From the NCBI GenBank assembly GCA_019509785.1, contig JAEKLQ010000025.1, positions 1 through 64,000 on the forward strand: a stretch of DNA of 64,000 nucleotides, given 5' to 3'. Origin of the DNA: Fibrobacterota bacterium. Lineage in GTDB: Bacteria > Fibrobacterota > Fibrobacteria > UBA11236. Made by a program: the position numbers and the translations under genes. The notes beneath the pieces were generated by a model, which saw only the letters and a program-made list of their open reading frames with translations, made no database searches and was not told the origin of the DNA. The first letter of the stretch is position 1, and each line of letters opens with the position of its first letter. Positions 51,156 to 64,000 of the stretch are shown one piece after another.

Positions 51156-51287
51156 CGGCAATCGAATTCCCAAAATCGGATACCCCGAAATAAAGGGAAC
51201 AATCCTCCTGCCCTCGGCCGTCCAAAGAAGGGGAATTTGTACCTTTTTCCGGCGTTTCCGTGCCCGTTTCGTCTTGAAGGAGATCCT

Positions 51288-52394
51288 ATGCGCCAACGCG
51301 CCCTAGTTTGCCTCGCCGCCTTGATCGGATTCGTCGGCCTCCGCGTTCCGGCGGCCAAAACCCTGCTGGTCCTTCCTCTCAAGATGGACACGGTGAAAAT
51401 CGCCGATTACGTGGCCATGCGGGAAATGTTCACCGAGAACCTGACCAAGGAATATGACGGATCCGTGAAGGATGCGACGGGGCCGATGGAAGTTTGCGCG
51501 GCGCGGGAATGCGCCGCCAAGGCTCTCGCCTCCCAGGGAGGCGACGAGGCGGTATTCGGATCCATCCGCATCCTCGGCAGCAAATATTTCCTCAGCGGCT
51601 CCATCTTGGGAGCGGACGGCAAGCTTTACTCCCAGCAAATCCCCATGGCGGGCGTGGAGGACTTCGAGGCCGCATCCAAGCGCATCGCGGCGTCCCTGGC
51701 GAAGCGCAAGGACATCGAGCAAGTCGCCGACGTGGATAACGTGACCGAAAGGGAAGAGGCGCCGGAAGCCAATCGCCGCGCCGGCTTCTATAGCATGGGA
51801 GGCTCGGTCGGGTTTACCATCCCGGTGGGCGATAGCTACCAGCGTTGGTCGATGAAAACGAACGGGTGCGAATTTTGCGGGACGCAAGATACCACTTATA
51901 CCCACTTCAAGAGCAAGCAAATCTTCACCCTGGGCTGGAACAACTGGTTCGAATTCAAGAACCACCTGGCCCTCGACCTGGACGTGCTGCTCCATATCCC
52001 CATCGCCATGGGCGGCGACGCGAATCTGGATTATCTCTTCGGGAACTCGGATTTCACGCCCTTCGCCGGCGGCGGCCTGGGCTTCCAATACGTTTTCCCC
52101 GACGAGGGAATCCATGCGGATGACACTAAGCAGAACCTGGGGCCCGCGGCCAACGTGCAGGCGGGCATGATCCTGTTCCGGACCTACAACATCAACCTGA
52201 TCCTGCGCAGTTCCTATCATGTCGTGATGAACGATGACATGGACAACGGCCCGACTTTCGAGATCGCGGTGCGAACCAAGATGGGCGGCACTTCAAGCGA
52301 CAAATACCATCATACGTCCTCGACCACCTACCTGGGAATGGCGATCGGGGCCGCTTACCTGATCGCAATCATCATAGGCGCAGCCAAGTCCTAA
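51288..52394 (+). CDS. Exported outer-membrane beta-barrel-like protein
   Basis: The ATG at 51288 follows GGAGA by four bases and gives a 368-residue product with a signal (RALVCLAALIGFVGLRVPAA-K). Residues 25-150 form an alpha/beta domain like FlgT/TolB-N-type lipoprotein domains that read component levels (LLVLPLKMDTVK...; ILGSKYFLSGSILGADGKLY). Residues 165-330 have alternating aromatic strands typical of a small barrel (FYSMGGSVGFTIPVG; PFAGGGLGFQYVFP; NINLILRSSYHVV). A terminal hydrophobic stretch (YLGMAIGAAYLIAIIIGAAKS) is unusual for a barrel. Its transcript ends at a perfect terminator. Confidence 0.65.
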   Translation: MRQRALVCLAALIGFVGLRVPAAKTLLVLPLKMDTVKIADYVAMREMFTENLTKEYDGSVKDATGPMEVCAARECAAKALASQGGDEAVFGSIRILGSKYFLSGSILGADGKLYSQQIPMAGVEDFEAASKRIAASLAKRKDIEQVADVDNVTEREEAPEANRRAGFYSMGGSVGFTIPVGDSYQRWSMKTNGCEFCGTQDTTYTHFKSKQIFTLGWNNWFEFKNHLALDLDVLLHIPIAMGGDANLDYLFGNSDFTPFAGGGLGFQYVFPDEGIHADDTKQNLGPAANVQAGMILFRTYNINLILRSSYHVVMNDDMDNGPTFEIAVRTKMGGTSSDKYHHTSSTTYLGMAIGAAYLIAIIIGAAKS

Positions 52395-53180: not shown

Positions 53181-54833
53181 ATGCCCCAGTACCAGCGCGT
53201 GGAACCCTATCCCTTAGGGGCCGATGCCACCGAGTATCGCCTCCTCAGCCGCGATTTCGTCTCCATAGAGCGCTTCGGCGACCGCGAGATCCTGAAAGTG
53301 GACCCGCAGGCCCTTACCCTGCTGGCCCGCGAGGCCCTCACCGACGTCAATTTCCTTTTACGTGCGTCCCATCTGGCCAAGCTGCGCGCCATCCTGGATG
53401 ATCCCGAAGCCTCGGACAACGATCGCTTCGTGGCCGATACCCTGCTCAAGAACGCCGTGATCGCCGCCCAAGGGAAATTGCCTTCCTGCCAGGATACGGG
53501 CACCGCCATCGTGATCGGCGAGAAGGGCGAGCGCGTATGGACCGGCGGCGACGACGAAGCGGCATTGGAAGAAGGCATCTTCCGCACCTACCAGGAACAA
53601 AACCTGCGCTATTCCCAGATGGCCCCGGTCTCCATGTTCGATGAGAAAAACACCGGCAATAATCTTCCCGCCCAGATCGATATCCATGCCGCCTCCGGCG
53701 GCCCGGGCCATGGGGACGAATACCGCTTCCTCTTCCTGGCCAAGGGCGGCGGCTCGGCCAACAAAACCTATCTCTTCCAAGAGACCAAGTCGCTCCTGAA
53801 CGAAAAGTCCCTGGAGAAATTCCTGCGCGAAAAGTTGTTCTCCTTGGGCACGGCCGCCTGCCCGCCCTATCATCTGGCCGTGGTCATCGGCGGGACCTCG
53901 GCGGAGGCGACCTTAAAGGCGGTCAAGCTGGCCTCGACGGGCTACTACGACTCGCTGCCGATCCAGGGCCAGGGCGACGGCAAGGCCTTCCGCGATCCCG
54001 AATGGGAAGAACGCATCGTCCGCATGGCCCGCGAAAGCCGCATCGGAGCCCAGTTCGGGGGAAAGTACTTCGTCCACGACGTGCGCGTGCTGCGCCTGCC
54101 GCGCCACGCCGCATCCTGCCCGGTGGGCATCGGGGTCAGCTGCAGCGCGGACCGGAACATCAAGGCCAAGATCACCCGGGACGGGATCTTCCTGGAGCGC
54201 TTGGAACGCGATCCCGGCCGGTTCATTCCCGCGGACCGGGCCGGCGCCGGCGCGGGAGTGGGCGTAGAAACGAAGCCGGTCCCCATCGATCTCAACCAGC
54301 CGATGGAAGCCATCCGCGCCGAATTGTCCAAGCATCCCATCAAGACGCGCCTGTCCCTGACCGGGCCGCTTATCGTGGCCCGCGACGTCGCGCATGCGCG
54401 CATCAAGCAAATGCTGGACGCTGGCAAGCCCATGCCGCAATACCTCAAGGATCACCCCGTCTATTACGCCGGTCCCGCCAAGACCCCGCAGGGCATGGCT
54501 TCGGGCAGCTTCGGGCCCACCACGGCCGGCCGCATGGACGGCTACGTGGACGAGTTCATGGCCAAGGGAGGTTCCTTCGTCATGCTGGCCAAAGGCAACC
54601 GTTCGCCCGTGGTGCGCGAGGCATGCGCCAAGCATAAGGGCTTCTACCTGGGCTCCATCGGCGGGCCCGCCGCCATCCTGGCGCAGGAAAACATCCTCAA
54701 GGTCGAAGTAGTGGATTTCGAAGACTTAGGCATGGAGGCCGTGCGCCGCATCTGGGTGAAGGATTTCCCCGCCTTCACCGTAGTGGACGACAAGGGCAAC
54801 GATTTCTTTCAGGGCATGGGCGCGAAGGACTGA
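53181..54833 (+). CDS. fumA: Fumarate hydratase, class I (iron-sulfur)
   Basis: The 550-residue product matches the single-chain FumA/FumB type. The N-terminal part contains [12 protein letters not shown] with the first cluster Cys, [19 protein letters not shown] with the second, and [17 protein letters not shown] with the third, giving the oxygen-sensitive 4Fe-4S cluster. The C-terminal swivelling domain carries [16 protein letters not shown] and GSIGGPAA. The enzyme interconverts malate and fumarate and fits an anaerobic reductive branch with PEP carboxylase. The next gene starts three bases after its stop, so a CheB/receiver protein is made with it. Confidence 0.95.
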
Positions 54834-54836
54834 GCG

Positions 54837-55766
54837 ATGAAGGTCTGCTTCATCCTTTCCTCCATCGGCGGCCCGCGCATGCTGCCGCAGATTTTCGCCG
54901 GCGGCATGCGGGACGACGTCGCTTACGTGGTGATCCAGCGGCTGGCCGGGGCCGGCCTCTTGGACGTGCTGGTGGAATGCCTGCGCGAAGATCTCAACCG
55001 CAAGACCCTGATCGCGGGCCATACCCTGCAGCTCCAGCCCGGGGCCATCCACTTCCTGCCCAATGAACGCAACTACGCCTTCGAAGGCGATGCCTTGGCG
55101 GCCGCCCCCGGCAAAGGCGCCCTGGATCTGGATCTCCTCTTCGCCTCGGCCGCCGCCCAGCCCCATGCCTGCGCGGTCGCCGTGCTTTCGGGCATGCTGG
55201 TGCAGGACGAAGGCTTGGCCGGGCTCGCCAAGCTGGCGGCCAAAGGGTCCTCCATCGTGGGCACCTTGGAGAGCCAAACGCCCGTCTTCGACATGATCGA
55301 GCGCCTCCGCTCCGCCGGCCTCATGGGCGAGCTTTATCCGCCCAAGCATTTGCTGGAGCATCTCGAATTCGCGACGGCCAAGCCCCGAGCGGAATCGCCC
55401 GCCGGGACGCAGAACGGCCCGCGCTTCCTGATCGCCGACGACGACGAGAAGGTGCGTTCCATGCTTTTCGAGATGCTGAAACTCCACGGCATCGCCTCCG
55501 ATCTGGCGGTGGACGGTTTGGACGCCGTGCGCAAGATCCAGAAGGGCCATTACGATGCGCTGATCCTGGATCTGGCCATGCCGGAGATGGACGGCATCAA
55601 GACCTTGGAAGCCCTCAAGACCATCGATCCGGCTTTGCCCATCGTGGTGATGACGGGCAGCGAGGATCCCGCGCGCATCCAGGCGGCGAAGGAGTTCAAC
55701 GTGTTAGGCGTTCTGCAGAAGCCCTTTTCCTGGGACAAGCTGAAGAAGCTGCTGCCCATGGGCTAA
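54837..55766 (+). CDS. Degenerate CheB-methylesterase-like domain fused to a C-terminal receiver
   Basis: Residues 1-180 follow the CheB catalytic domain: SSIGGPRML in place of (A/G)STGGP, VVIQRLAGAG in place of VVQHMP, FLPNERNYAF near the substrate loop, and VLSGMLVQDEGLAGL in place of LTGMGxDG. The catalytic His is replaced by Arg, so esterase activity is doubtful. Residues 195-309 are a standard receiver: IADDDEK, phospho-Asp in LILDLAMPEMDG, T in VVMTGSED, Lys in LQKPF. CheB normally has the receiver first; here the order is reversed. The gene follows fumarase after three bases. The role may be sensing or scaffold rather than receptor demethylation. Confidence 0.75.
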   Translation: MKVCFILSSIGGPRMLPQIFAGGMRDDVAYVVIQRLAGAGLLDVLVECLREDLNRKTLIAGHTLQLQPGAIHFLPNERNYAFEGDALAAAPGKGALDLDLLFASAAAQPHACAVAVLSGMLVQDEGLAGLAKLAAKGSSIVGTLESQTPVFDMIERLRSAGLMGELYPPKHLLEHLEFATAKPRAESPAGTQNGPRFLIADDDEKVRSMLFEMLKLHGIASDLAVDGLDAVRKIQKGHYDALILDLAMPEMDGIKTLEALKTIDPALPIVVMTGSEDPARIQAAKEFNVLGVLQKPFSWDKLKKLLPMG

Positions 55767-55828
55767 GGCCACCGCAGGCCCACGGCGGCGAGGCGATTCG
55801 GCGCAAAGCGGCGTGGGCGACCGGCCGC

Positions 55829-57358
55829 TTACCGGAGCACGATGTAGATTCCGGCCACCAGGACGATCACGATAACGCCCAAGGTCTTCGCCAAAGGGCT
55901 AGGGCGCAGATCGGGCGCGCCTTCCCGCCGCTTCAGCTTCACCGGTTCCTTCAGCGGCTTGACGGCCGTGATGATGCCCATCAGCGCGATCAGGATCAGG
56001 AAGGTTATAGCCATGTGGTTGAGGAAGGCGACGTTCGGGAACATCCAGCGCTGGAACAGGTAGATGACGACGCTGCCGATCAAGGCGGTCATCGCCGCCG
56101 AAGTGGGCGCGCGCGGGAAGACCAGGCCGAACAAGAAGGCGGCGGTTATGCCCGGCGAGAAGCAGCCCCACAATTCCTGGATGTAGTTGAAGACACCATG
56201 GAAGCGGCCCGGCAACGGGGCGAGCAGGCAGGCGACTACGGTGAAGGCGATGGTCGAGATGCGGCCGACCAGGACTTCCCGTCTGTCGTCGGCGGCGCGG
56301 TTGATGAACCGCTTGTAGAAATCCAGGGTGAAGATGGTTGACGCAGAATTCAGGATGGCGGCCAACGCGCTCATGATGGCCCCCGATAGCGCCGCCAACA
56401 GCATTCCCCGTAAGCCCAAGGGAACGATTTCCCGGATCAAGGTGGGATAGGCCAGATCGGGATTGCTGATCTTGTCCCGGAAGAGCTGGTACGCGATGAT
56501 GCCCGGCAGCACGATGATGAAGGGGATGAAAATCTTCTGCAGGGCGGCGAAAAGAATGCCCAATTGGCCCTGGGCCAGGGTCTTGGCCGCCAAGGCGCGC
56601 TGGGTGATGAACTGGTTGAAGCCCCAGTAATAGATGTTGGGGATCCAGATGCCGAGGAGCAACGCGGTCCAGGGAATGCCGGGATGGTTGGCCGGCAACA
56701 CCATGTGGAACTTGTCGCGGTTGTTGTGGAAAAATTCCGCCACGCTCCCGACCCGGCCCAATCCGATGCAGGTGACCACCGCCCCGCCGATGAGGAGCGC
56801 CGCCCCGTGGAGCAAATCGGAATAGGCCACGGCCTTGAGGCCGCCGAAGGCGGTGTACAGTCCCGCGCATAGCCCCACGATCCATACGCCGTAAGCGAGA
56901 TCGAGGCCGAACATGGCCTGGAGCGCGATGGCGCCGGCGTAAAGCACGGTCACCATCACGACGCCGCAGTAAGCGACCATCATGTAGAACGCCATCAGGG
57001 TGCGCGGGGCCGGGCCATAGCGGTATTCCAGGAACTCGGGCATGGTATAGATGCCCAGGTTCAGGTACAGGGGCAAGAGGAAGAAGGCGATGAACACCAA
57101 GGTCACCGCCGCGATGAACTCATAGCTGGCGATGGCCAGGCCCGCCCCTCCGAAGGCCTGTCCCGACATGCCCACGAAATGTTCCGAAGAGATGTTGGAG
57201 GAAATCAGCGAGAACCCCACCAGCAGCCACCCCATGCCCCGGCCGCCGAGGAAATAATCCTTCGCCGTTTTCTCCCGGCGGGATTTGTACATGGCGTAGG
57301 CGGTCACCAGCACTGAGAAGACTAAGAACCCGGCCCAGTCGATCCAATTAAGTTGCAT
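55829..57358 (-). CDS. Sodium:solute symporter (SSS/SGLT family), probably for galactose
   Basis: The 509-residue product has about 13-14 helices. SGLT hallmarks are ADYFLGGRGMGWLLVGFSLISSNISSEHFVGM near the N-terminus, YTMPEFLEYRYG, AYTAFGGLKAVAYSDLLH in outline, and IPNIYYWGFNQFITQRALAAK, the region holding sugar-binding residues in vSGLT. The gene follows galK by 24 bases with SD AGGAA, so Na+-driven uptake of galactose or a galactoside is likely. It is the last gene of the gal locus. Confidence 0.9.
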   Translation of the reverse strand: MQLNWIDWAGFLVFSVLVTAYAMYKSRREKTAKDYFLGGRGMGWLLVGFSLISSNISSEHFVGMSGQAFGGAGLAIASYEFIAAVTLVFIAFFLLPLYLNLGIYTMPEFLEYRYGPAPRTLMAFYMMVAYCGVVMVTVLYAGAIALQAMFGLDLAYGVWIVGLCAGLYTAFGGLKAVAYSDLLHGAALLIGGAVVTCIGLGRVGSVAEFFHNNRDKFHMVLPANHPGIPWTALLLGIWIPNIYYWGFNQFITQRALAAKTLAQGQLGILFAALQKIFIPFIIVLPGIIAYQLFRDKISNPDLAYPTLIREIVPLGLRGMLLAALSGAIMSALAAILNSASTIFTLDFYKRFINRAADDRREVLVGRISTIAFTVVACLLAPLPGRFHGVFNYIQELWGCFSPGITAAFLFGLVFPRAPTSAAMTALIGSVVIYLFQRWMFPNVAFLNHMAITFLILIALMGIITAVKPLKEPVKLKRREGAPDLRPSPLAKTLGVIVIVLVAGIYIVLR

Positions 57359-57382
57359 GCGTTTTTCCTTGCGTGTTGGCGA

Positions 57383-58591
57383 TCAGGCGCCGCGCTTCAG
57401 CGACGGTGCGGAAGAGTAGATAGTCTTCGCCCCATCGGCCAGGCGGATAGGCCAGGCCGAAACGGGGCACGAGGAAGGGAAGCGGACCGGATATTCGCGC
57501 CGCACGGCGGCGATGGCCGAATCCACGGACCCGTCCCGGATCAGGGCGATGACGCAGCCCCCGAAGCCGGCCCCCGTCAAGCGCGCCCCGATCGTGCCCG
57601 GCGTCCGATGGAGGATTTCCACCAGCAGATCCAGTTCGGGGCAGGATACTTCGTAATCATCGCGCAAGCTGCGGTGGGAGGCGGAGAGATTCTTCCCCAA
57701 GGCCGCCAGGTCGCCGCGGCGCAGTGCCGCGCAAGCCAGTTCCACGCGCGCATTCTCGCCCACCACGTGCCGGATGCGGCGCAGCAAGACAGGATCCATT
57801 CCTTCGGAAGCGGCGGCCAGATCTTCCGGCGATAAGGCGCGCAAGGCATGCTCCCGCCGCAGCTGGGGGAGCCGCGCCTGCAACCATTCCAGGCCCTCTT
57901 GGCACTGGGTCCGCCGCAAGTTGTATTCCGAATCGACCAGGCCGCGCTTCTTACCCGAATCGATCACCAGCCAGGTATGGCCGGGTACCGCCGCCGCCAC
58001 AGCCTCGTATTCGAGGTTGGCGCAATCGATCTTGAGGGCGTGATCGGCGATCCCCAGCGCGGAGATGTACTGATCCATGATGCCGCATTGCATCCCCACG
58101 AAACCGTTTTCGGCCCGCTGGCATAGCAAGGCGACGTCCCGTCCCGGAAGCGGATGCTGGAGCAGATCCAGCACGGCGCGGGCGACGGCCACTTCCAAGG
58201 CGGCCGAGGAGGATAGCCCGGCGGCCTGGGGCACGTTCCCCGCCACGCAGAATTCGAAGCCGCCCGGCCTGATCCCGATCCGTTCCAGCTCTTGCAGGAC
58301 GCCGAGGACGTAGCGTAGCCAACGATTGGGATGCCCGGGATTGAACTCGCCGACGGCGAACCGGACCTTCTCCCCGAATTCGGTGGAGTATCCGGTGACG
58401 TAATTCCCTGGCGCCGAGCGGATGGAGAAGAGGATTTGCCTATCAATCGCGACAGGCATTACAAGGCCGCCCATGTAATCGGTATGCTCGCCGATAAGGT
58501 TGACGCGTCCGGGGGCGGAAGCGATCAGATCCGGCTCTCCGCCGAAGGCATCGCGGAACGATCTCAACATGGATTCCAGGGCCTGGTTCAC
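57383..58591 (-). CDS. galK: Galactokinase
   Basis: The GTG at 58591 overlaps the galT stop as GTGA; the longer frame would run inside galT. The 402-residue GHMP kinase has the galactokinase signature GRVNLIGEHTDYMGG near residue 27, the phosphate loop NVPQAAGLSSSAALE, DSGKKRGL and the C-terminal GARLTGAGFGGC. It phosphorylates galactose to galactose-1-phosphate, the first Leloir step. galE and galM are not in the window. Confidence 0.95.
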   Translation of the reverse strand: MNQALESMLRSFRDAFGGEPDLIASAPGRVNLIGEHTDYMGGLVMPVAIDRQILFSIRSAPGNYVTGYSTEFGEKVRFAVGEFNPGHPNRWLRYVLGVLQELERIGIRPGGFEFCVAGNVPQAAGLSSSAALEVAVARAVLDLLQHPLPGRDVALLCQRAENGFVGMQCGIMDQYISALGIADHALKIDCANLEYEAVAAAVPGHTWLVIDSGKKRGLVDSEYNLRRTQCQEGLEWLQARLPQLRREHALRALSPEDLAAASEGMDPVLLRRIRHVVGENARVELACAALRRGDLAALGKNLSASHRSLRDDYEVSCPELDLLVEILHRTPGTIGARLTGAGFGGCVIALIRDGSVDSAIAAVRREYPVRFPSSCPVSAWPIRLADGAKTIYSSAPSLKRGA

Positions 58592-59595
58592 GAAGCCGTT
58601 CCTTGCCGGCGTTCCGCGCCGGCCCGGCGCAATTCCTCCGCCGATTCCTCGGGCAGGGACGGATTGATGATATTGCCTCCCCCGGTCTCGAAACCGGCCA
58701 GGTATTTCAGCTTGTCCGCCGACCGCACGGGCGGCGCGAACTGGATATGGAAATGCCAAGGCGTGGGGTCGAGGCCCGCCTTGCAAGGCGCGTTATAGAA
58801 GAGGGTGATGTTGGGGATGCGCCGGTTGAACATGTTATCGTAACGGATCAGCACTTCCCGGTACAGTTCCGCCAGCGCGCGCATTTCCCCGTCGTCCAAC
58901 GATGTCAGGTAAGGCACATGCCGAAGTGGCATGAGATGCACTTCGTATTTGAAACGCGCGAAGGCGGGCACGAAGGCGGCGAAATGGCCGTTACGGGCCA
59001 CCACCCGGCTCCCGTCGCGCAATTCCTTCCCGAGCACGTCGCAGAATACGCAGCCGCCTTCGCGGGCCCGGAATTCAGCAGCGCTCGCGTACATGGCCGC
59101 CGGGATGCGGGGGATGAAGTCGGTGGCGTAGATCTGCCCATGGGGATGAGGATTGGAGACCCCGATCTCCTTGCCCTTGTTCTCGAAGGGCATCACGTAT
59201 TCCATGCCCGGTACGGAAGCCAATTCCCGGAACTGCCCGGCGAAGGCCCGCAGCACGCCCTCGATCGCGTCCACGTCCATGTCGACCAAGGTAACGTTGT
59301 GCCGGGGGTCGAAGCAAACCACGCGGCAGACTCCGCGGGCCTGGGCCTCCAGGCTTAAGGATGCGTAGTCATTGTCGAAAACGAGGGTACCGGTATAACG
59401 GGGATTGGCTACTCCCGTGGCCCGGCTCGCGCCCGGGCAGAGATGGCAAGCCGGATCGAAGGCGGGCCCCGTTTCTTCCGCGGCCCGCATAACGGCACCG
59501 TTCCAGGGCCGTTCACCGGTGGCCGGGGCCAGGATCACCCATTCCTTGAGGTAAGGGTGCATGCGTTTCAAGGATGCCGGCCGACCCACGCTCAT
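58588..59595 (-). CDS. galT: Galactose-1-phosphate uridylyltransferase
   Basis: The start at 59595 follows GGAGGA and gives a 335-residue HIT-superfamily enzyme. The active-site motif is VSNPHPHGQIYA, in which the second His is uridylylated. Zinc-binding positions are in CHLCPGA and GCVFCDV. The C-terminal part has WHFHIQFAPPVRS. It exchanges UDP-glucose and galactose-1-phosphate. It is 16 bases downstream of the broken barrel gene and overlaps galK, so the locus looks polycistronic. Confidence 0.95.
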   Translation of the reverse strand: MSVGRPASLKRMHPYLKEWVILAPATGERPWNGAVMRAAEETGPAFDPACHLCPGASRATGVANPRYTGTLVFDNDYASLSLEAQARGVCRVVCFDPRHNVTLVDMDVDAIEGVLRAFAGQFRELASVPGMEYVMPFENKGKEIGVSNPHPHGQIYATDFIPRIPAAMYASAAEFRAREGGCVFCDVLGKELRDGSRVVARNGHFAAFVPAFARFKYEVHLMPLRHVPYLTSLDDGEMRALAELYREVLIRYDNMFNRRIPNITLFYNAPCKAGLDPTPWHFHIQFAPPVRSADKLKYLAGFETGGGNIINPSLPEESAEELRRAGAERRQGTAS

Positions 59596-59611
59596 GCTCC
59601 TCCGGCCCGGC

Positions 59612-60223
59612 TCAGTAGCTGGCCGTGACGCGGATGATGCCCCACCATTGGCTGCGATCCTTGAGCAGCTCTTCGTAGGTGAAGCCGTTGTCATCGGGAA
59701 GCCGCAAATGGTCATGCGCGATTTGGCTGGAGATGAAAAGTCCGCGCGCCACGGTTTTTTTCAGATAGAAGGACCATTTCCAAGGGCTATAGACGTAATC
59801 CGAATGCGTCGCCGGATTTACGTAAGAGGAGGGGCTGAAGTTTTGGCCGCCGGGTACGGGAAGCCCTTCGCGTAGCGAGGTTTGCCAGTCGTTCGGAAAC
59901 GGGTTTCCGCAATATTCGACTTCAATGCTCGCGACATCCAGGAGATTGAAGGCCGGGAAATTGAAACCCAGCATCCACGGGATCCGTTGTTTAAGGCTGG
60001 CGTAATAAAAAGGGTAGTCCTTCAACCCGAGAACCGCGGCTTCGCCGTAGAACTTCATGTCCTGGGACCCGAGCAGGGCAGGCGCTCCAAAGAGCGGCTT
60101 GGGATCCAGGGAAAATCGTCCCATCAGGGAAACTCCCTGGAACGTGTAATATCCCGTATCGACCTTCATCTTCGGATAGATTCGGTCTTGGGCGATTCCA
60201 GGCTGGGCTTCACCGCTAGGCAA
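59612..60223 (-). pseudogene. Outer-membrane barrel of the gal locus, C-terminal fragment (frameshifted)
   Basis: The 203-codon frame continues the barrel protein of 60166-60794 after a one-base shift near 60170-60190: the upstream frame ends SPKTESIRR, this one gives DRIYPKMKVDTGYYTFQG. It alternates aromatic and polar residues (FYGEAAVLGLKDYPFYYASL; KWSFYLKKTVARGLFISSQIAHD) and ends in WWGIIRVTASY, a typical barrel-closing strand with a terminal aromatic. A porin-like role for galactosides is suggested only by position before galT. Confidence 0.6.
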
Positions 60224-60794
60224 TGTTCGCAGGAAACGCCCGCGCCGAGATCGAGAACGCTTCCGAACTTATAATCCGAAACATAGGAGATGGTATAATC
60301 CGATTTCGGGTAGTATTTGTATTCCGAAGTAAGCAGCAGATCCTGGTGGAAACCGTGGGAGAACCAGGTTCCCAAGCGAATCCCCAGTAATCGATCTTTG
60401 GGCAACTCGAAATTCGTTACCAGGGTTACCGGATACATTTTGCTGCGGAATAGATACTCGCCCAGGTTCCGCTGATCCGGATTATAGTCGTAGAGGAAAT
60501 ACCCGACTTCCATTTCCGTGGGGAATTTCCAATCCTTCCCGAAAGCGTACAACGCCTTCGCCTCATGGATATAGGCGTTGTAGCCCGTTATCCGGGAATT
60601 CTCATTGTTCGTCTCGGGAAACGGCCTATTGAAGCTCGCTTCCAACGCCACTCGCGTGGATAGCTTATCGCTCATCGTGTTCTCGACTTATACCCGATAT
60701 TGACCGTCGAGTCCTGGGGATCCGCATCCTTGGCGAAAACCCAGCCGCAGGTTGCCAACCCGATAAACAAGCCGAATCCGACAGAATTTTTCAA
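60166..60794 (-). pseudogene. Outer-membrane barrel of the gal locus, N-terminal fragment (two frameshifts)
   Basis: AGGAG five bases before a TTG at 60794 opens a signal peptide (KNSVGFGLFIGLATCGWVFA-KD) that reaches VNIGYKSRTR and then hits a TGA at 60674-60672. In the next frame DKLSTRVALEASFNRPFPET carries on as a barrel (ALYAFGKDWKFPTEMEVGYFLYDY, then YPVTLVTNFELPKDRLLGIRL in outline). The joined protein, with the fragment at 59612-60223, would be about 390 residues. Both shifts fit single-base losses. The family is not recognised. Confidence 0.6.
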
Positions 60795-60888
60795 GCGAAC
60801 TCCTTTCCCGTTCTTAAAGTCATGGAAGCATAGTTGCAAAGTAGGAGCGGATCCCTGACGCAGGGGCTCCGCTAATCATGGCTTGGAA

Positions 60889-62376
60889 CTAGAACCGGAT
60901 TTCCGATTTGATATCGGAATTGGTTAAACGAAGGACGTGGCTGCCATCCCCTTTGATCGGGGAAGGATATCGCGAAGGGCCGGAACCATCGCGCCGCCAC
61001 AACACTCTCCCGTTCAAGTCCAGGATTTGCAGGGAATATTTTCCGGGCAACCCGATGTTGAACAACCCCGATGTATAGTCCACTCCGCGCATTTCCGCGC
61101 GAGAAGCCTTCGGAGCGAAATCGGAGACATCCGTCGTCGGGGTCAATTTCAGGATGGCCAGGCCATGGCTGGGAACGGAGATCCCGAAGCTTCCGGTTTT
61201 GGCGGTCGCGATATCCGCTTTGGCCCACAAATCCCTGACAGTCGCCGACGTCGTCGCCGTCCATGGGCCGACCGTGGTCCATTTATTCAGATCCGCCCAA
61301 TTCACGGTGATCATAGCGGCGGCACCGGAACGGTTGAGAAGCCCGACGGCGCGGCAATTCCCCATCATCGGCTTCGCCCATATCTCAAGAGAATTGCTCG
61401 AAGAAAGACGTTGCGCTTGTACCCCCAAAGAATCCTGGTCGACCGCGATGACCTCCCTATTGATCAGGATATCCCGGATATCGGTCGTCATTTTGGTCAC
61501 GTCATTTCCCGCGATCAGAGGGGCGCTCAATAGGCACCACATCCCGAAATGGGCCCTGTTTTCATCCTTATTCGAGCCGATGTTGCCTACCTCCAGCATG
61601 TCCGGATCATTCCACCCGCCGGGTTCGCCCGCGGCGCCGGGGCCGGCATAGGAGAACAGATTCACTTGTTGATCCAGGATGGACATGATCGAAGCCCAGT
61701 TCGGCCCGATATCGGTAGTCGTGCGCCAAATCTGGCCCCCGGAACTCCGCCCGAAGGTCCACGATTTTCCTACTCCCCAATTGCAAATGCTGTACAGGAT
61801 GGGACGGGCGCTGTTGGGCCCGGCGTACTTCTTGATCGTATCGCCCAGGATTTTATATGCCGCCCCCGGGTTCCCCGTTTGAGTGCCGTTCACGTGGCAC
61901 CAATCCACTTTTATATAGTCAACGCCCCAGTTCACCCACTGACGTACATCCTGGCTTTCGTATCCGAGCGTAGCCGGCTTTCCTTGGCAGGTTTGATCGC
62001 CAAGGGAAGTGTAGGCCCCGAACTTCATCCCTTTGCCATGAATGTAATCCGCCAAGGATTTGAGGCTGCTGCCCGTGAATTTATTGGTAGAGCTGATAAA
62101 TCCATTGGCGTCGCGAGCACCCTCCCAACAATCATCCACGTTCACGTAGTTATACCCGGCCGCATTCATTCCGTTGGACGTCATGGTATCCGCCACCGCC
62201 TTGAGCAGGGTTTCGCTGACGTTGCATGCGAATTCGTTCCAGGTGTTGAAGCCCATCGGGGGAGTTTTAGAAAGCGGTGGATTCACGGTTTGCGCCTGAA
62301 CCATGGTGATGCATAAGGATGATGCAATAGCGCCAAGAATTCCGGCCCTTATCGTTTTCGCTACCGATGCTCTCAT
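60889..62376 (-). CDS. Secreted alpha-galactosidase, GH27
   Basis: The ATG at 62376 follows AGAGGAG and opens a signal peptide (AGILGAIASSLCITMVQA-QT); the product has 495 residues. GH27 motifs are PPMGFNTWNEF, YNYVNVDDCWEG, DYIKVDWCHVN (nucleophile Asp near residue 158) and GGWNDPDMLEVGN with the acid/base Asp. The (beta/alpha)8 barrel is followed by the usual beta-sandwich near 310-400. A further tail (about 415-495; KYSLQILDLNGRVLWRRD) resembles the tail of the CE6 esterase. It releases terminal alpha-1,6-galactose from galactomannans or raffinose-type sugars. A LacI-type operator lies 25 bases before the ATG. Confidence 0.94.
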   Translation of the reverse strand: MRASVAKTIRAGILGAIASSLCITMVQAQTVNPPLSKTPPMGFNTWNEFACNVSETLLKAVADTMTSNGMNAAGYNYVNVDDCWEGARDANGFISSTNKFTGSSLKSLADYIHGKGMKFGAYTSLGDQTCQGKPATLGYESQDVRQWVNWGVDYIKVDWCHVNGTQTGNPGAAYKILGDTIKKYAGPNSARPILYSICNWGVGKSWTFGRSSGGQIWRTTTDIGPNWASIMSILDQQVNLFSYAGPGAAGEPGGWNDPDMLEVGNIGSNKDENRAHFGMWCLLSAPLIAGNDVTKMTTDIRDILINREVIAVDQDSLGVQAQRLSSSNSLEIWAKPMMGNCRAVGLLNRSGAAAMITVNWADLNKWTTVGPWTATTSATVRDLWAKADIATAKTGSFGISVPSHGLAILKLTPTTDVSDFAPKASRAEMRGVDYTSGLFNIGLPGKYSLQILDLNGRVLWRRDGSGPSRYPSPIKGDGSHVLRLTNSDIKSEIRF

Positions 62377-62856
62377 GTTCGCTCCTCTGCGGCCCTTCAA
62401 TGTAAACGTTTGCATAAAGGGGAATATAATGCCCATCGGCGGTTTTATGTCCGGGTTTTTTCCTTTAGATGTGGGAAAATTCCCTGAATATTGGAAGAAA
62501 GCGGATGTTATTGAATTGGAGAGCCAGAATTGGGAGCTCAGGGTTTCAAATCAGCTAGCGATGCCGCCGGGAAATTGGGGTCTGTTTACCGTCGGGCCCC
62601 ATTGAACCCGCAACTCTCCCTTCCGGGCCAGGATTTTACCTTGCTCAATGGAAAATGCCAGTGTAACTGGGGAATCCTGTGCCGTATCGGGAACTATGTG
62701 TTTCCGAAGGACATTGGACATGGAGTCCAAATCCCAATAACCGGTGAGCCTTGTCACAGTTGCCGCCGGGCCGCCCCATTACTTTAATTCCCATTTCGTT
62801 CCTGTAGCCCGGCTAGCCGCCGGAAATCGCCCCGAGGGGGCAGGAGACTGTCTTCC
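62377..62856. other. Divergent intergenic region of the GH27 and Ig-lipoprotein genes
   Basis: About 480 bases between two divergent genes carry the operator at 62401-62414 and both promoters. Short frames exist on both strands (for example 62551-62757 minus) but they lack ribosome-binding sites and family features, so I call no gene here. Confidence 0.4.
62401..62414. promoter_or_regulatory. LacI-family-type operator upstream of the alpha-galactosidase
   Basis: TGTAAACGTTTGCA is a near-perfect palindrome with central CG and fits the LacI/GalR/CcpA-type consensus TGNAANCGNTTNCA. It lies 25 bases before the GH27 start codon, where binding would block transcription or its start. No LacI-family regulator is encoded in the window. 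Confidence 0.55.
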
Positions 62857-64000
62857 ATGCGTGCACCCTTCCATTCCTCCTCATTTATTCAACCCCCGCT
62901 TGGACGCTTTCGGCCCGCCCTCGCGCTCCTGGGCGCCATTCTGTTTCTTCTCCTCTGGTCCTGCCAATTGGAGTCGGGAACCAAGGTGGAGGATACCGCC
63001 AGCTTCGATCAGCTGTTCGATTCGCTTTCCAAATACGATAGCGTCATCATCGTGTTCAACGACACCAACGGCCGCTTCCTGGATACGGTTTATCAGGGCA
63101 AGGTCGACAGCCACGCAAAGCTCGTGAACCTGCCCGTTAAAGGATGGGATGGGGGAAAGGCCATCATCCGCATCACCGGGATCACGGGCGGCAAGGTGGT
63201 TTATGAAGTGCAGAAGAAATTCGACGGAACGGTGAATCAGGTGGACGGCAATACCTATGTCATCCTGCCGGGAACCGCGCTCTCGGGGAACTTCCAGGAT
63301 TGGCAAATCACGGTGGGCGACTCGCTCAAACTGCCCGTCATTACGGTGACACCCGAGGCGTTGAGCGACAAGTCCATCCGCTGGATGGCATCCGACACCG
63401 CCATCCTGCACTTGGGATCTGATTTCGTGCGGGCGAAGTCCCAAGGCAGCGCCACCCTGACGGCCCGGCTCCGGTCCGATTCCACCAAAGCTTTCGCGAT
63501 CCTGGTTACGGTCAATTCCAATTTCCGTATGCCGGACAGCCTGTTCCTTTCCCCCAATCCCATGCAACTCACGGCGTCGGGAGCGCCGGGGCAATTCACG
63601 ATTCGATCGACCCCGGCCACGGCCGATAAATCCGTGGATTGGATATCGGACGATTCCACCATCGCCCGGGTTTCGCTCGACGGCTCGGTGCAAGGGCTGA
63701 AGCCGGGAAGCACGCGGATCAGGGCGGCCTCGAAGACCAAATCGGAAGTGACCGCCGGCGCCGACGTCCTGGTCGCCGCTGAAACCCCGGTGAGCAAGGT
63801 CGCCTTCCTCAACCAACCAGGCAACCTCTACGTGGGCGGCGTGCCCGAAAGCCTGCTGGTCAAGGTCACTCCCCCAACCGCCAATCAGGAGGTGGAATTT
63901 TCCGTGGCCGACTCGGCATTTGCCGCCGTCGCGAATCACAAGATCACTGCGCTTAAGGCCGGAACGACGCAGGTGATCGTCCGATCCTCGCGCTACCCTT
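62857..64000 (+). CDS. BIG2/Ig-repeat surface lipoprotein, 3' end outside window
   Basis: The ATG at 62857 has GGAG about 11 bases upstream and is followed by a lipoprotein signal (ALALLGAILFLLLWSC, Cys near residue 38). The frame stays open to the window end, giving 381 residues. The first 150 residues are paralogous to the lipoprotein at 27440: SCQLESGTKVEDTASFDQL against SCQLTKSDKVENTLSFSRL, LDTVYQGKV against LDTIYQAKV, ITGGKVVYEV against IKDGKVVYQV. Two to three BIG2-like domains follow (SVDWISDDSTIARVSLDGSV). By analogy the missing C-terminus may carry an enzyme domain. Confidence 0.85.
   Translation, partial: MRAPFHSSSFIQPPLGRFRPALALLGAILFLLLWSCQLESGTKVEDTASFDQLFDSLSKYDSVIIVFNDTNGRFLDTVYQGKVDSHAKLVNLPVKGWDGGKAIIRITGITGGKVVYEVQKKFDGTVNQVDGNTYVILPGTALSGNFQDWQITVGDSLKLPVITVTPEALSDKSIRWMASDTAILHLGSDFVRAKSQGSATLTARLRSDSTKAFAILVTVNSNFRMPDSLFLSPNPMQLTASGAPGQFTIRSTPATADKSVDWISDDSTIARVSLDGSVQGLKPGSTRIRAASKTKSEVTAGADVLVAAETPVSKVAFLNQPGNLYVGGVPESLLVKVTPPTANQEVEFSVADSAFAAVANHKITALKAGTTQVIVRSSRYP

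Follow-up and report, generated by a model that had tools for sequence, protein, structure and literature searches.

Directly downstream of a class I fumarase, in the 64,000-nucleotide stretch of Fibrobacterota DNA that we analyzed (the window), lies a gene for a response regulator in which a CheB-methylesterase-like domain with a broken catalytic triad precedes an intact receiver (REC) domain. Comparisons of sequence and gene order indicate that this CheB-REC protein is a real and conserved variant, lineage-limited among 168 genomes of the phylum. We favor, at a probability of roughly 45%, the reading that its CheB-fold output is a pseudo-methylesterase that would be gated by phosphorylation and would bind a protein partner, following a logic like that of the stress regulator PhyR.

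The source genome is a 5.4 Mb draft in 106 contigs. Within the window, the gene and its surroundings on the forward strand read as follows.

53181..54833 (+): class I (Fe-S) fumarate hydratase, the upstream gene of the pair; 550 aa; matches Pfam Fumerase and Fumerase_C and the NCBIfam class I fumarase models
54825..54829 (+): AAGGA, probable ribosome-binding site, as read from the sequence
54834..54836 (+): GCG, the 3-nt gap from the fumarase stop to the next start
54837..55766 (+): gene for the CheB-REC protein; 309 aa; identified by its open reading frame, Pfam matches and orthologues

The fumarase stop codon, TGA, occupies 54831-54833 and is followed by the ATG of the CheB-REC gene at 54837. 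The AAGGA lies 7 nt 5′ of this ATG, within the 3′ end of the fumarase reading frame, and a scan for promoters and terminators between the two genes returned nothing notable. An earlier note on this DNA had placed the start three bases past a class I fumarase, and both the spacing and the enzyme class hold. The same note called the gene fused with fumarase; one putative operon does join them, but these are two genes with separate proteins.

Response regulators with a CheB output are normally REC-CheB enzymes. Here the order is the opposite, as the earlier note had also stated: Pfam places CheB_methylest at residues 6-175 (E 1.8e-14; 54.3 bits against a cut-off of 24) and Response_reg at residues 198-305 (E 3.3e-24, above the cut-off). 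A profile HMM of the CheB-like half matched five CheB structures and nothing else significantly. We also modeled the structure of the whole protein (mean pLDDT 81, pTM 0.57); the arrangement of the domains in this model is not trustworthy. The best Foldseek matches to the CheB-like half were the CheB catalytic domains of T. maritima (3sft; E 2.4e-9, TM 0.73 by target length) and Salmonella (1chd), while those to the second half were Spo0F and CheY. Within the genus, identity is 68-77% in the CheB half and 67-81% in the REC, and falls to 5-23% in the linker, implying that both domains are constrained and the linker is free. The positions on which the following analysis rests are these.

54852..55361 (+): CheB-methylesterase-like domain, aa 6-175; Pfam PF01339, Foldseek 3sft and 1chd
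54861..54863 (+): Ser9, equivalent of the CheB catalytic Ser by alignment, kept in 7/7 homologues
54939..54941 (+): Arg35, which replaces the catalytic His by alignment, Arg in 7/7 homologues
55191..55214 (+): GMLVQDEG, altered catalytic-Asp motif by alignment, with a 2-residue insertion relative to the canonical GMGxDG
55428..55751 (+): REC domain, aa 198-305, with a complete phosphorylation site; Pfam PF00072
55569..55571 (+): Asp245, predicted phospho-acceptor by alignment

The receiver is fully equipped, as its acidic pair D201/D202 and residues D245, T273 and K295 are invariant in all seven homologues. Its best matches in the source genome are the receivers of other proteins (34-36% identity), with the receivers of canonical CheBs far weaker. 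For this reason, the protein probably arose when a CheB domain acquired a different receiver, one not of CheB origin, and a circular permutation of an ordinary CheB is not favored.

CheB methylesterases use a Ser-His-Asp triad, which is S165-H191-D287 in the Pectobacterium enzyme (PMC7698151). Aligning the window protein with canonical CheBs from the source genome and related genomes showed that this triad is incomplete: the serine is kept, the histidine has become arginine and the aspartate site is altered. The canonical A-S-T-G-G-P reads S-S-I-G-G-P, with Ala changed to Ser and Thr to Ile10 around the retained nucleophilic Ser9, and the V-Q-H motif reads I-Q-R35. The Asp motif of the relatives, GMLTDEDG or similar, also carries two extra residues, and its catalytic column is not conserved: the window protein has Glu there, and the most distant homologue has lost the position. 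By comparison, 7/7 homologues share the Ser, the Ile and the Arg, and the pocket motifs SSIGGP, QR and LSGM do not vary, with Q34, R35, S118, G119 and M120 unchanged across homologues of 36-76% identity. A Ser-His-Asp triad whose His is exchanged for Arg is normally no longer catalytic. Because the altered states are universal among the homologues, the Asp site is disrupted and the alignment contains no histidine conserved across all seven CheB-like halves, the CheB-like half is expected to have no methylesterase activity.

These results support much of what the earlier note had read from the motifs. Its catalytic His-to-Arg replacement is correct, and its “probably inactive” stands as a prediction, strengthened by the disrupted Asp site that it did not mention; a catalytic histidine restored nearby, which it had named as counter-evidence, finds no candidate among the conserved positions of the CheB-like half. 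Its description of STGGP changed to SSIGGP captured a real change, but the canonical motif is ASTGGP and the nucleophilic serine is still there.

To place the gene among its relatives, we compared the window genus (six genomes), its sister genus (four genomes) and the full set of 168 phylum genomes; two of our labels, L040 and G005, denote the same record. Orthologues lie directly 3′ of fumarase in 6/6 members of the genus, and the five others are 64-76% identical to the window protein. The two genes are always on the same strand, 3-56 nt apart across the genus (12-56 nt to the aligned start in the other five). In two members the CheB-REC frame could start so as to overlap the fumarase stop, an arrangement that would amount to translational coupling. 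A phosphoenolpyruvate carboxylase (PEPC) gene lies 0.1-2.7 kb 5′ of fumarase with variable genes inserted between, whereas the fumarase/CheB-REC pair is never interrupted in the genus. One of these intervening genes, at 51237-52394 (+) in the window, encodes a 385-aa protein that has no Pfam match and is 35-38% identical to products of intervening genes in three relatives, where the gene runs opposite to fumarase. The neighbors of the CheB-REC gene in the genus are fumarase, PEPC, a symporter or a small unnamed gene; no cheA, cheW, cheR or chemoreceptor (MCP) gene stands beside it in the genus loci or in that of the outgroup genome described next.

This outgroup, G010, belongs to another family of the same order and encodes a homologue of 36% identity, whose domain order and substitutions match those of the window protein. 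The gene for it lies 6 nt behind a STAS-domain gene rather than behind fumarase, and we detected no class I fumarase in this genome, which is 79% complete; a match of the class II fumarase/aspartase type is present, as it is in the window genus. The STAS gene has no close homologue in the window genus and is unsupported as a general partner. In the sister genus, four genomes carry fumarase and 0/4 carry the CheB-REC gene. No further orthologues were found among the 168 phylum genomes, where the other matches were ordinary CheB domains, and a pattern scan of 84,980 genomes returned close relatives only. Since relatives share both the substitutions and the gene order, the pattern is not a product of chance, and the open frame, the 64-76% identity in the genus and the invariant key residues led us to reject a decaying pseudogene. 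The tie to fumarase is only genus-deep. A fumarase module as a general rule is rejected, because the link fails in both G010 and the sister genus. The pairing that the earlier note had emphasized is thus tight in 6/6 genus members but is not kept beyond them; the homologues without a fumarase link that it had named as counter-evidence were found in part, G010 having the gene without a detected class I fumarase and the sister genus having fumarase without the gene.

Within the order, the gene seems to go with motility rather than with fumarase. It is present in 6/6 members of the window genus, which has the flagellar motor protein FliG, and in G010 (L190), which has FliG, MCPs and CheR; we found no CheW or other CheB in G010, although sequence may be missing from so incomplete a genome. 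In the four genomes of the sister genus, FliG, CheW and every CheB are absent. The loss of the CheB-REC gene therefore went with motility, fumarase being retained in that genus. This association is suggestive only, since it comprises one or two events and the sister genomes are generally small (2.2-2.7 Mb), so that the loss could be due to chance. Additionally, the flagellated G012 and G014, from another family of the same class, do without the gene.

What might such a protein do? A hydrolase with a changed specificity or mechanism, with Ser9 as nucleophile, Arg35 or another residue standing in for the histidine and a substrate that is not a receptor methyl ester, would explain why Ser9, the GG turn and the pocket residues are invariant, as if the pocket still binds. 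We consider this unlikely, given the usual effect of a His-to-Arg exchange, an Asp site whose residue differs among homologues and the lack of a histidine common to all seven. Similarly little credence goes to a phosphate sink or a CheY-like receiver to which an inert CheB remnant is attached. The REC is complete and the CheB half is predicted to be catalytically dead, as this reading needs, but in the genus the two halves are equally conserved and the pocket of the CheB half is invariant, whereas an inert remnant should decay.

Other explanations start from the neighboring gene. The phosphorylated protein could bind fumarase and adjust its flux or localization, the pair forming one module, and the constant, close, same-strand spacing in 6/6 genus members, set against the variable distance from PEPC to fumarase, fits this proposal. 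It is nonetheless quite doubtful, as G010 has the protein with a different upstream gene and no detectable class I fumarase, and the sister genus has fumarase without the protein. Still less credible, and in our judgment very improbable, is that the pair couples the fumarate level to the flagellar motor. In E. coli, rotation is affected by fumarate reductase, which interacts with the switch of the flagellum (PMC6978683), and Salmonella that has lost fumarase shows altered flagellar rotation together with lower CheY (PMC6908425). Beyond these links in enteric bacteria, the presence of FliG in the genus agrees with the idea; however, the sequence gives no sign of fumarate binding, and the adjacency does not hold in G010. 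The earlier note had suggested a signaling link of this kind, and we find it unsupported; within the order, the occurrence of the gene tracks the flagellar motor better than it tracks fumarase.

We instead favor the phosphorylation-gated pseudo-methylesterase, because the pocket is conserved, the triad is broken, the receiver is intact and four canonical CheBs are encoded elsewhere in the source genome, which means that the esterase job is already taken. In this mechanism, a histidine kinase, CheA or another, would phosphorylate Asp245, which would alter the exposure of the CheB-like domain; that domain would bind, and not hydrolyze, a protein partner. The likeliest partner would belong to the chemosensory or motility apparatus since, within the order, the gene is present with the flagellar motor and absent from the sister genus that lacks one. 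Partner switching could then proceed as in PhyR, where a non-functional mimic domain precedes a C-terminal receiver, and co-transcription with fumarase in the genus would set dosage, not necessarily identify a ligand. A more specific version, to which we assign a low likelihood, casts the protein as a CheB decoy under phosphorylation control, which would either shield methylated receptors or titrate a chemotaxis partner and would be made in step with fumarase so that central carbon flux tunes taxis. If true, it would make the protein the CheB counterpart of PhyR.

Among known systems, CheB itself (PDB 1a2o, 3sft and 6ymz, for example) shares the domain family and fold of the CheB-like half, the catalytic serine and the possession of a receiver. 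It differs in carrying the receiver N-terminal to the esterase, whereas ours is C-terminal (198-305 after 6-175), of non-CheB type and joined to a domain with Arg for His in 7/7 homologues and a disrupted Asp site, in a gene that does not sit beside chemotaxis genes. PhyR, the general stress regulator of Alphaproteobacteria, has a sigma-like domain leading into a C-terminal REC and acts by partner switching (PMC12148442). The shared layout of a mimic domain followed by a receiver makes partner switching plausible for CheB-REC by analogy, but the mimic is CheB-like here, and no link to NepR or EcfG was shown. CheB-only proteins and CheB-CheR fusions, including a CheB-CheR protein of 1284 aa in the source genome, likewise place a CheB domain in a non-standard layout. 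All but a few of the CheBs that we sampled retain the active-site His, and in none of them does a C-terminal REC follow a CheB domain with the His-to-Arg change. We found no report of an inactive or inverted CheB, or of a CheB-REC arrangement, in a search limited to open-access literature, which makes this weak evidence. A conserved, catalytically broken CheB with a receiver at its other end suggests that CheB became a binding module at least once, and the homologues are a small, clean family in which this can be tested.

The region downstream of the gene bears on its history. Both G010 and five genus members have a small conserved gene (MQLPKYKKKKR...) convergent to and downstream of CheB-REC; in one of the five, a 595-codon gene is inserted before it. 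In the source genome the small gene is about 12.4 kb further on, past an insertion.

L123 627-998 (+) and, outside the window, contig C25 of the source genome (G000:C25) 68173-68532 (-): small gene, 123 aa, starting MQLPKYKKKKRIKLK, with Cys/His pairs like those of a zinc-binding protein

Its product belongs to no Pfam family; identity is 83-88% throughout the order and 61-73% at the level of the class. The insertion runs from window positions 55767-64000 on to about 68170 of the contig and contains sodium:solute symporter, galactokinase-like and galactose-1-phosphate uridylyltransferase-like genes, among more. In the sister genus (G006), the corresponding block consists of fumarase, the small gene, an S41-like gene and an amidohydrolase-like gene, with no CheB-REC. 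The simplest reading is that CheB-REC stood beside the small gene before the families split, stood beside fumarase in the common ancestor of the two genera, and was lost from the sister genus. In another genome, G008, the small gene has next to it 29 codons copied from the 3′ end of fumarase (L185 2825-2911, -), and the whole fumarase lies 1.1 kb away at L185 4017-5630 (-), an arrangement that represents a duplicated gene end around an insertion.
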